A DNA stretch of 64,000 bases from Gammaproteobacteria bacterium HGW-Gammaproteobacteria-15 (GTDB lineage Bacteria; Pseudomonadota; Gammaproteobacteria; Enterobacterales; Alteromonadaceae), in NCBI GenBank assembly GCA_002840125.1, contig PGZF01000001.1:1-64000 (forward strand), in the 5' to 3' direction. Below the pieces are notes generated by a model. The model saw only the letters and a program-made list of their open reading frames with translations. It made no database searches and was not told where the DNA came from. This document shows positions 45,279-53,175 of the stretch, in pieces (the stretch's first letter is position 1; every line of letters begins with the position of its first letter). Both the position numbers and the translations under genes were made by a program.

Positions 45279-46982
45279 ATGGGATTTTGGAAAACCGTAG
45301 GCGGGCGTTTGTTAAGCATTCCTTTACTGGCATTGCTTGGTTTTGTGGTACTTGGCGCAGTTGCCTTAAATGCATTACAGCACAGCCTGACAGAGGGCAG
45401 AGAAAACAGGGTAGTAGCGGTAATTGACAGTGCCCTTAGCCTGGTAAAGCATTATCAGGCACTGGAGCAAAGCGGTAGCCTGAGTAAAGAACAGGCACAG
45501 CAACAGGCCATGGCCGCCATTAAAGCCATACGTTACGATGGTACTGAATATATCTGGATTAACGACACCGGCCGGCCCATTCCCAAAATGATTATGCACC
45601 CGACAGTGCCAACATTAGATGGCACTGTACTGGACAGGCCAAACTTTGACCATGCCACCTTAATGCGCAACCGCGATGGCAGCCAGCAGCAAACCTTAAA
45701 TAATGCCAATCTGTTTGTCAGCTTTGTTGACGTAATAGGGCGCTATGGTAATGGTTTTGTCGAGTATCAGTGGCCTAAGCCAATCAAAGGCGGCGGGGTA
45801 ACTGAAGAGCGCTATACCAAGCTGTCTTATGTGGCCAAAGACGATAACTGGGGTTGGGTGCTGGGCTCAGGTATTTATATCGATGATGTAAACGCGGCAT
45901 TCTGGGCTGTTGCACTGCAAATCGGTACGGTGGTGTTGATCGTTATTCTGTTAACGGTGGGCGTATCGTTGTTTATCCGCAGTTGGTTACTGCGCTCGCT
46001 CGGCGGTGAAGTCGCCGACACCAAGCTGTTGGTGCAGCAGGTTGCCGCAGGCGATTTCTCGGTACAGTTTGCTCTGCGAAGTGGTGACAACGACAGCCTG
46101 CTGGCTGCGCTTAGCATTTTGGTTAATCAGCTGCGCAGTATTATCAGCCAGCAAATATCGATGGCTGAACAACTGGCAATACAGTCTGAAGCGTTAGACG
46201 ACAGCAGCCAGCAAACACAGCAGATTTTGCAAAATGTAATGGATCAAACCGCGCAGGTTGCTACTGCGGTAAATGAAATGACTGCCACCTGTGAAGATAT
46301 GGCCCGCAGCGCCACCACCGCCGCCAAAGCCGCCCGTGATGCCGACACCGAAACGCAAAACGGGGTAACTTCGGTAGGTCAAACCATTATCGCTATTGAT
46401 GCGTTAAAGCTGAAGTTAGAGCAGGTATCTGAGGTTATTGCGCAGTTATCCAAGCGTGGAGAAGAGGTTGGGGCAGTAACCGATGTTATCGGTGCCATTG
46501 CCGAGCAAACTAACTTACTGGCACTAAACGCCGCAATAGAAGCCGCCCGCGCCGGTGAAATGGGCCGCGGCTTTGCTGTGGTAGCTGACGAAGTACGCAC
46601 CCTGGCCAGCCGCTCGCAAGCCTCTACGCAGGATATCAACAAGCGTATTCAGGGTATTCAGCAGGATTCAGCCAACGCCGTGCAATCTATGGCACAAAGC
46701 AAAGCCGAAACCGAGCAAACCATAGTCTGTTCGCAGCAGGCCAATGAGGCGCTAAAACGCATTAATACCGCGGTATCCAGCATTACCGACGTTAACGATC
46801 AACTGGCCAGCGCTACCGAAGAGCTGGCCGTGGTGTCGGGCACCATCAATGAAAATATGGAGAATATCGCCACAGCAGTGGAAAGCACCACAGCAAAATC
46901 GACTGAGCTTTCAGTAGCCAGCCAGCAACTGCGGAAAATGGCCAGCGATATGAAAAAATCGCTAAGTGGGTTTAAACTCTAA
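45279..46982 (+). CDS. Methyl-accepting chemotaxis protein with a Cache sensor
   Basis: A 567-residue chemoreceptor: membrane helix (about 12-33), periplasmic single-Cache domain (about 35-205; [18 protein letters not shown] is the sCache_2 signature), second helix (about 208-232), HAMP, and a cytoplasmic signalling domain with the tip [16 protein letters not shown]. Small carboxylic acids are common ligands of this Cache type, but the ligand is not known. AAGGA precedes the ATG. Its 3' end is partly duplicated at 50304-50462, which marks an insertion boundary. Confidence 0.94.
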
Positions 46983-47010
46983 ACCAATATAGGGAAGTGC
47001 AGAAACAACA

Positions 47011-47038
47011 AAGCCCCGCGAAAGCGGGGTTTTGTTTT
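47011..47038 (+). terminator. Terminator of the chemoreceptor gene (hairpin copy 1)
   Basis: CCCCGC-GAAA-GCGGGG followed by TTTTGTTTT. Together with its AGAAACAACAAAG leader (46999-47015) it is copy 1 of a hairpin found again near 50478-50515 and 53048-53085. Confidence 0.92.
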
Positions 47039-47045
47039 ACCAACA

Positions 47046-48158
47046 CTAAAGATTCAAAAATGCGAGGTGCGGCATAATTACAGTCATGTTCGACTTAATT
47101 AATGCCGCACTGCCGCCGAATATCAAAGCAAATAAAGTACAGGCGGCAGTAAAGCTAACCCGCTTGTAAACGAGTTCGTGAAACTTATCCATCAGGTTCC
47201 ACAACATAAACAATGCACCCACCCAGAACATGGTATCAAGTTGATAGAGCAGGGCGATGATAATAACAGCCAGCCCACTGATAAGTGCTGCCAGCTCTGC
47301 AATAAATCGCAGCCAAAACCGGTGCTTTAGCAAGAAAAAGCTTAGGTAGCCAAGTGCAGTAAAATACGCCAACGGCAATACGGTTAGCATGCCCAGCTCA
47401 AAAGCTTGTAGGGTTTGTCTAACAGGCATTAAGGCAGACAGCCAGGTAGTATAAAAGATCAGCCATGCCAGCAGCGTTAACAACAGACAGGCGAGAGCTA
47501 AACGCAGTACCACAGCTATACGAGCTTCGTTAACACCAACTGCAATCATTCCCGGCGTAATCAACATGACAAAGCCTAAACTGTAAACAAAGGCGATAAC
47601 ACTACAAACACCGAAAACGCTATTGTCAAAGCACCATGCCAGAAGGCCCAGCACCAGCATTAACAGCCATCCAGTCCATCGGCGTGCTTTACCTGGATTC
47701 TCAATACGGCTATTTACAGAATAAGCCAGCACACCAGCCAACGAGAACCCTGCTACCAATACAACGTATTCCTGGTGGAAGACCAGCAACGTGACTGTGG
47801 ATGCTACATATACCAGTGCTTCATTCAGGATTGCTGGGAAATACGACATTATTTTGGCAACGAGTGCCAGTAACAATAGTGCTGAAATACTGTATAAAGC
47901 TGACGTAAAGCTGTCTATCCGTTGTTCGGTGGCTGATGCTGACGGCATATCTTCGAGTGATATCTGGTATCTGCTGTAAGCCTGCTGTTTAATACTTTCA
48001 GACTTCTCGTTAAACACAGCTTCAGTTATCGCATTTTCAGCTTTTAACTCTAACAGCAATTGATATTGGGCACGCAGCTCTGCTGCTGAGTCAGGTGTGT
48101 ATTCGGTGGCAAGGCTTATAAAGGGTAAGAAAACTAATAGTATAAAAATAAAACGCAT
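47046..48158 (-). CDS. Polytopic membrane protein of unknown function
   Basis: A 370-residue protein with a signal-like N terminus (about 18 residues), a 70-residue extracytoplasmic helical part and then eight or nine hydrophobic helices (from about residue 85). No family is recognised. It is the last of three minus-strand genes with overlaps or small gaps, after the hydrolase-like and unknown proteins. In toxin cassettes a polytopic partner of a lipase can be an immunity protein or a transporter; this is speculation. It lies between duplicated chemoreceptor sequences and is probably acquired. Confidence 0.72.
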   Translation of the reverse strand: MRFIFILLVFLPFISLATEYTPDSAAELRAQYQLLLELKAENAITEAVFNEKSESIKQQAYSRYQISLEDMPSASATEQRIDSFTSALYSISALLLLALVAKIMSYFPAILNEALVYVASTVTLLVFHQEYVVLVAGFSLAGVLAYSVNSRIENPGKARRWTGWLLMLVLGLLAWCFDNSVFGVCSVIAFVYSLGFVMLITPGMIAVGVNEARIAVVLRLALACLLLTLLAWLIFYTTWLSALMPVRQTLQAFELGMLTVLPLAYFTALGYLSFFLLKHRFWLRFIAELAALISGLAVIIIALLYQLDTMFWVGALFMLWNLMDKFHELVYKRVSFTAACTLFALIFGGSAALIKSNMTVIMPHLAFLNL

Positions 48159-48164
48159 CTGGCT

Positions 48165-53006: not shown

Positions 53007-53047
53007 ATTTGTACTTAAGGCCGACAAACCGGCTTTAGATGTTAGTT

Positions 53048-53085
53048 GCAGAAACAACAAAGCCCCGCATAAGCGGGGCTTTGTG
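53048..53085 (-). terminator. tRNA-Pro terminator (hairpin copy 3)
   Basis: AAAGCCCCGC-ATAA-GCGGGGCTTT, a perfect 10-bp stem (53059-53082). On the minus strand, in the tRNA direction, it is followed by GTTGTTTC. It may also end the ImmA/IrrE gene on the plus strand. Confidence 0.85.
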
Positions 53086-53090
53086 TTGAG

Positions 53091-53126
53091 GAATTTAATG
53101 GTCGGTACGAGAGGATTCGAACCTCC
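53091..53126. repeat. tRNA-Pro 3' end, right copy of the att-like repeat
   Basis: Matches 50519-50554 at 33 of 36 positions. The repeat runs from the flank through CCA into the T arm, the usual crossover area for tRNA-targeting integrases. Confidence 0.8.
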
Positions 53127-53175
53127 GACCCCTTCACCCCCAGCGAAGTGCGCTACCAAGCTGCGCTACGTACCG
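53099..53175 (-). tRNA. proL: tRNA-Pro (anticodon GGG)
   Basis: A 77-nt tRNA with encoded CCA. On the minus strand the acceptor CGGTACG pairs with CGTACCG; the D arm contains GCGCAGCTTGGTAGCGC, the anticodon stem is CTTCG/TGAAG with loop CTGGGGG (anticodon GGG), and the T arm is GGAGGTTCGAATCCTCT. It is intact and borders the accessory island. Confidence 0.96.

Follow-up and report, generated by a model that had tools for sequence, protein, structure and literature searches.

Genomic islands of the integrase type that sit in tRNA genes leave a 3' fragment of the tRNA together with neighbouring cargo. In Vibrio cholerae, arrays of immunity genes of the type VI secretion system (T6SS) have been explained by homology-facilitated illegitimate recombination, the anchor being the upstream part of an effector module inside T6SS clusters (Kirchberger and colleagues, PMC5361080). 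A further study reports that pairwise competitions were won, apart from two exceptions, by the strains whose orphan immunity genes matched, and that one strain with many such genes for the most part did not behave as predicted (PMC8189183). Here we describe a locus of the genus Rheinheimera that lies between a chemoreceptor (MCP) gene and tRNA-Pro(GGG), starting from a 64,000-nucleotide (nt) stretch of the genome of Gammaproteobacteria bacterium HGW-Gammaproteobacteria-15 (hereafter the window). The site exists in empty and in differently filled versions, its cargo has crossed species and its flank ends are duplicated. With a probability of about 0.6, we read it as a hot spot without an integrase gene at which cassettes for competition and of a defence-like kind are gained, exchanged and cleanly removed, and two of its genes, C395 and B276, as a T6SS-type pair.

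The site resembles the V. cholerae arrays in that an anchored end would be combined with an illegitimate join, old 3' ends would be displaced inward, no integrase is known to act and orphan immunity genes are kept, the immunity role being a predicted one here (PMC5361080). It differs from them in its anchors, an unrelated chemoreceptor end, a shared terminator and tRNA-Pro, in apparently receiving insertions from both sides, and in mixing weapon-like with defence-like cargo. The core defence hotspots cDHS1 and cDHS2 of Pseudomonas aeruginosa likewise hold variable immune-type cargo between fixed core genes, the Rheinheimera site being similar in size to cDHS2 (median 6 kb) and smaller than cDHS1 (median 26 kb) (PMC10250203); unlike either, it carries a weapon-like pair, few known defence genes and repeat copies that record the order of events. 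In contrast to integrase-type tRNA islands, no integrase was found, and the duplication extends past the tRNA into the neighbouring gene. Judged by title and the start of the abstract, none of the listed matches from the Rheinheimera literature on type VI secretion or genomic islands describes the site, and no literature was found on effector islands built on terminators or direct repeats; other mobile elements have been described in Rheinheimera sp. D18 (PMC7155750, PMC7775301).

The MCP gene was searched for in 31 Rheinheimera genomes and a close orthologue was found in 20, including the window's own genome (G000), so that the comparison covers the other 19 MCP neighbourhoods and leaves out the 11 genomes that have no close orthologue. 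MCP adjoins tRNA-Pro(GGG) in 12 of the 20 (the window and 11 of the 19), and no tRNA-Pro was found in the compared stretch of the remaining eight neighbourhoods. The initial annotation had proposed chemoreceptor, terminator and tRNA-Pro as the original order, and precisely this bare junction exists in four of the 12 genomes (G016, G015, G027 and G003), with 49-67 bp from stop codon to tRNA. The other eight sites are filled, with 672-7996 bp between MCP and tRNA and with differing cargo, in agreement with the hot spot of strain-variable content that had been claimed; a single set of genes in the same order throughout was not seen. In a tree of the MCP, DMT and PlsC genes (MCP itself being one of the three), three of the four empty genomes have a filled sister, G016 pairing with G000, G015 with G017 and G027 with G010, with support of 99, 100 and 100, respectively.

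Modules of C395 and B276 (genes C and B) occupy the site in the window, in R. pacifica BIGb0367 (G017) and in R. nanhaiensis E407-8 (G014), and with a broken C gene in G010 and G026. Elsewhere the cargo consists of A370 with a glucose/sorbosone dehydrogenase (G005), a 235-amino-acid gene without known family (G022) or a DUF4124 gene (G019), and that of G014 includes a type I methylase and specificity pieces. An IS3-type transposase pair lies within the right-hand cargo of the R. pacifica site (L101, 2465-3695). The tRNA-Pro anticodon arm was seen in two versions at the locus (window and L034-L044), one in G015, G014, G019 and G003 and the other in the remaining eight genomes; that the sister species G015 and G017 differ in it suggests exchange through the tRNA.

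Synonymous divergence (dS) was used to compare cargo with flanking genes, and demonstrates that cargo is transferred across species. Between the window and R. nanhaiensis, C and B have a dS of 0.144 and 0.121 against 1.11-1.97 for five flank genes; between G010 and G026, a second type of B has a dS of 0.065 against 0.92-1.61 for three flank genes; and between the window and G005, A370 stands at 0.115 against 0.28-0.56 for five flank genes. For E366 the window differs from G010 by 0.76, with flanks at 1.05-1.53. The MCP gene of the closest empty-site genome, G016 (contig C44), is reported with an in-frame TAG and was misaligned, and its dS was left out.

Within the window, the three copies of one hairpin that had been annotated, together with a truncated chemoreceptor end and a truncated tRNA-Pro on either side of the middle copy, were all located by alignment (Table 1). 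Compared with copy 1 over 41 nt, identity is 90% for copy 3 and 68% for copy 2. On either strand, each copy folds far better than shuffled sequences (six foldings, z from -4.5 to -6.1), copy 2 being the weakest on the plus strand (-14.3 versus -22.6 and -23.8 kcal/mol for the other copies). As the genes on either side of the hairpin converge and each of its strands folds well, it may serve as a terminator for both genes; a terminator scan, which found 14 sites overall against 9.0 expected in shuffles, assigns every copy to the minus strand alone, which is the tRNA side. A pattern of leader plus stem, allowing up to two mismatches, has three matches in the 4.68 Mb genome, two of them exact (copies 1 and 3) and the third elsewhere with two mismatches; copy 2, whose A run is longer, is not matched by it, and the reversed control also gave three matches. 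The exact pattern is confined to the locus, and we therefore rejected the idea that the hairpin is a common terminator frequent elsewhere in the genome.

The MCP remnant in the window is composed of two pieces, 50304-50372 (93% identical to 46629-46697) and 50372-50513 (83% identical to 46892-47033), with an internal piece of the gene missing; their matches to the empty-site allele of G016, at E values of 3e-26 and 3e-52, are not chance. On the tRNA side, 50519-50554 is 92% identical to 53091-53126, that is, to the last 28 nt of tRNA-Pro and 8 nt of flank. The duplicate thus spans the MCP end, the terminator and the tRNA end, and is not confined to the tRNA 3' end. From this anatomy, the central block at about 50288-50554 is probably a native junction displaced between two insertions, in which the MCP remnant would represent the old junction truncated on its left side. 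A plain tandem duplication was considered and rejected, as relatives carry the elements in single-copy order and the copies enclose unrelated cargo.

Comparable scars are found in relatives: each of the five hot-spot genomes with a whole or fragmentary C gene has an MCP-end remnant upstream of it. The window and G017 have the internal deletion in common (BLAST percentages were used for these two remnants, the multiple-alignment values being dropped because the first segment was misplaced), and the remnants of G010 and G026 start elsewhere in the gene. The 80-nt remnant of R. nanhaiensis is 82-89% identical to six MCP genes of the window's clade (G000, G016, G022, G005, G015 and G017) and 75% to its own, implying that this MCP end travelled with the cargo. 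In G026, by contrast, the remnant is closest to that genome's own MCP (93.5%), as expected if an old native end had been displaced, and that of G010 is equally near its own MCP and that of its sister G027 (90.6 and 90.7%). By eye, the cassette end upstream of C is alike in these genomes, yet it meets MCP at two places of a 747-nt empty-site reference, 250-255 in G000, G017 and G014 and 436-438 in G010 and G026, which is expected of non-homologous joins. R. oceanensis shares about 85 nt (by eye) of this upstream region, past which MCP sequence follows in the hot-spot copies; the 13-kb R. oceanensis stretch that carries C showed no tRNA. To the right of the cargo, native-type DNA starts at reference positions 616-621, before the terminator, in five of the eight filled sites.

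These joints suggest a mechanism in which incoming DNA from kin would pair one end with a core flank, either MCP on the left or tRNA-Pro and beyond on the right, and the other end would be joined without homology. Of the two anchors, the left-hand one resembles the 3' end of MCP, and the right-hand one appears to lie on the side of tRNA-Pro. Along with the cargo, the flank end and its terminator would arrive as a further copy, pushing the old end inward, and both convergent core genes would keep a terminator after each insertion. In the window, C-B (possibly with A) would have entered left of the old junction from the MCP side and D-E right of it from the tRNA side; the bare site could be restored by recombination between the outer repeats or by replacement with an empty allele.

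An alternative explanation for the tRNA 3'-end duplicates (28 nt in the window and about 30 nt in G017, with G022 showing an overlap of 25 nt between the two sides that extends 16 nt into the tRNA) is that successive integrase-type islands used the tRNA-Pro 3' end, each bringing a tRNA end before excising or decaying with loss of its integrase. We consider this unlikely, because the duplicated sequence continues past the terminator as far as the coding region of MCP and the intact tRNA has terminator DNA of native type beside it, neither of which is expected of attL and attR, and because the remnants of G010 and G026 have no tRNA part. Furthermore, the reported absence of an integrase agrees with our scans, in that the five cargo open reading frames (ORFs) of the window contain no Pfam integrase domain, a search that did not extend to decayed integrases in the gaps between them; among 12 other cargo ORFs from six genomes, the only such Pfam match was the IS3-type transposase of G017, whose domain is named integrase core. 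In our reading, tRNA-Pro is probably not an integrase target here.

The MCP-end direct repeats that flank C-B in G000, G017, G010 and G026, together with the clean empty sites, would also fit a process dependent on RecA alone, in which cargo between such repeats loops out as a circle that can reinsert at any MCP 3' end through a single crossover. The repeats of the window are only 83-93% alike and one is internally deleted, making exchange between them inefficient now, and circles alone explain neither the first arrival of cargo nor the right-hand block, so that we rate this reading as more improbable again than integrase islands. A bolder form of the hot-spot reading, which we put forward tentatively and think rather likelier to be wrong than right, is a two-sided ratchet free of integrases, in which the terminator common to the convergent core genes would act as a reusable docking site. 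Since each cassette would carry its own copy of flank end and terminator, both core genes would stay properly ended; the old junction, buried in the middle, would be a dated record, and recombination between the outer terminators would reset the site. The cargo spread among species in this way would include a new hydrolase effector family, perhaps with an N-terminal domain like that of RelE/ParE, along with the matching immunity proteins.

T6SS lipase effectors of the Tle families are Ser-Asp-His hydrolases with an adjacent partner gene. C395 and B276 are likewise a Ser-Asp-His hydrolase-like protein and an adjacent partner in a T6SS-bearing genome. The HSQG turn, S261, D319 and H357 are invariant in all 21 aligned C sequences, the window's included (the alignment leaves out L085, hidden by ORF choice, L092, where C is in two pieces, and L104, which is close to L103). 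C395 has no Pfam, PADLOC or NCBIfam family at E values up to 1; a few C members have weak alpha/beta-hydrolase matches in Pfam, the best being DUF900 in two members (E 1.9e-4), NCBIfam returned nothing relevant for the 21 C-type proteins, and Pfam gave only two chance-level matches for 20 B-type proteins. A sequence search of the PDB with C and B gave nothing useful.

Of 23 loci (16 stretches picked from order-wide C matches and seven named loci), 21 have a B-like gene behind C; of the other two, L093 reaches its contig end about 300 nt past C, and L099 has an unrelated lipoprotein-like gene next. G014, G017 and G035 (L084) each have B in two diverged copies. The finding of a broken C beside an intact B in G010 and G026 is what one would expect if an effector had been lost and its immunity gene kept, and in G404 (L099) an RHS-repeat gene is found two ORFs before a C relative. 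As for delivery, tssK is present in the window's own genome and in 13 of 17 C carriers compared with 160 of 377 other genomes of the order (Fisher p 0.010), and in 12 of 14 carriers at E 1e-20 or better (p 0.0017). Together these data suggest that C395 and B276 are likely an antibacterial hydrolase effector, delivered by the T6SS, and its immunity protein, the role of B276 being predicted from its position and retention.

It is also conceivable that C-B is no weapon, and that an ordinary hydrolase is accompanied by a gene for a partner or chaperone. Structural comparison of the B model is in keeping with this, since PsbP-like folds come first (E 8e-4, template-modelling (TM) score 0.29) and the Eag chaperone SciW and the immunity protein Tsi3 match only at E 0.06-0.07, as is the lack of a delivery gene among the island ORFs. 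The mobility of the pair, its diverged tandem B copies, the keeping of B where C is broken and the RHS-linked relative speak against it, and we hold it to be doubtful, at well below even odds.

With regard to the N-terminal part of C, a likeness to RelE/ParE toxins is a weak lead. Its alignment with a ParE profile (17 proteins, one misfit of 18 having been dropped) is collinear over 83 columns at E 4e-4, compared with at least 0.16 in 10 shuffled controls, with an hhalign probability of only 14%. One of the 21 C members has a Pfam ParE_toxin match (E 0.013), and a PDB search with this part gave three chance-level matches, none of them a RelE or ParE toxin. Residues 1-118 of C395 are 97-100% identical between the window and G014, G017 and R. 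oceanensis, and over residues 119-175 identity falls to 65% in G017 and 39% in R. oceanensis. In L099, two pairs of small genes come after the RHS-repeat gene and, by their order, resemble toxin and immunity genes; Pfam gave no match for the two of these four that were scanned, and one of the four is a short C395 relative with a lipoprotein-like neighbour.

Several observations weigh against the hot-spot reading and its T6SS-type pair. Between the window and G017, dS is 0.52 for C and 0.85 for B, not below the flanks (0.46-0.59), and that of E366 (0.27) is only moderately below them. The two joint positions could reflect a single joint followed by a later deletion, and in three of the eight filled sites (G005, G014 and G022) the right boundary falls at 650-662, at or beyond the terminator end, so that the right-hand pattern is not universal. 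G000 and G017 share a remnant with its deletion, and G016, G022, G005 and G015, which lie between them in the tree, have none; from this pattern, age, loss and transfer of the remnant would not be separable. The 28-nt tRNA fragment is equally expected from an integrase island. Turning to the pair, the association with tssK was computed ignoring phylogeny; tssK is present in all five C carriers of the genus, yet also in 21 of 31 genus genomes overall, and G404, with its RHS-linked relative, has no tssK match. Library scans recognised no VgrG, PAAR or other delivery domain among the island ORFs, nor was one recognised beside C relatives by eye from ORF starts only. The AlphaFold model of C is poor (mean predicted local distance difference test (pLDDT) 46.7), its best fold match (E 0.016) being uninformative. 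Lastly, mechanism, delivery and toxicity are deduced from comparison.

Table 1 Features between the chemoreceptor gene and tRNA-Pro, in positions of the window
Feature	Position	Strand	Basis and remarks
Intact chemoreceptor (MCP) gene	45279..46982	+	ORF; left core flank and proposed left recombination anchor
Terminator-like hairpin, copy 1	46999..47038	.	Between convergent genes; repeat alignment, folding, terminator scan
A370, putative membrane-type protein	47046..48158	-	ORF; judged by sequence; no Pfam family
B276, proposed immunity partner of C395	48165..48995	-	ORF; position behind C in relatives
C395, alpha/beta-hydrolase-like, proposed antibacterial effector	48995..50182	-	Invariant HSQG, S261, D319, H357
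MCP 3'-end remnant with internal deletion	50288..50462	+	Alignment; start 50288 by eye
Terminator-like hairpin, copy 2, most diverged	50478..50516	.	Alignment, folding, terminator scan
tRNA-Pro 3'-end remnant, 28 nt	50527..50554	-	Alignment
D300	50741..51643	+	ORF; no family match
E366, M78/IrrE-type peptidase (PADLOC capP-like)	51906..53006	+	Pfam 4.5e-12, PADLOC capP 8.3e-19
Terminator-like hairpin, copy 3	53048..53086	.	Alignment, folding, terminator scan
Intact tRNA-Pro(GGG)	53099..53175	-	Rfam tRNA; right core flank and proposed right anchor

The peptidase E366 also adjoins tRNA-Pro in G017 and G010 and is the only defence-type content that PADLOC recognised in the window's cargo; for A370, B276, C395 and D300 nothing in Pfam, PADLOC or NCBIfam rose above the curated cut-off. 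A370 was seen only in the window and G005 among the 19 compared stretches and in one of 295 genomes of the order, the window's own. D300 is absent from the 19 stretches and has no relative in the 294 other genomes of the order; it carries the sequence RNAIVH, a putative motif of the kind seen in HEPN nucleases.

These data suggest a route by which competition genes may spread between species without being part of a mobile element. The scar pattern that such a route appears to leave, consisting of a flank end, a terminator and a truncated junction, is readable and could be used to locate docking sites in other genomes. Moreover, the locus points to an unnamed and scattered pair of hydrolase and partner as a candidate antibacterial effector with its immunity protein.

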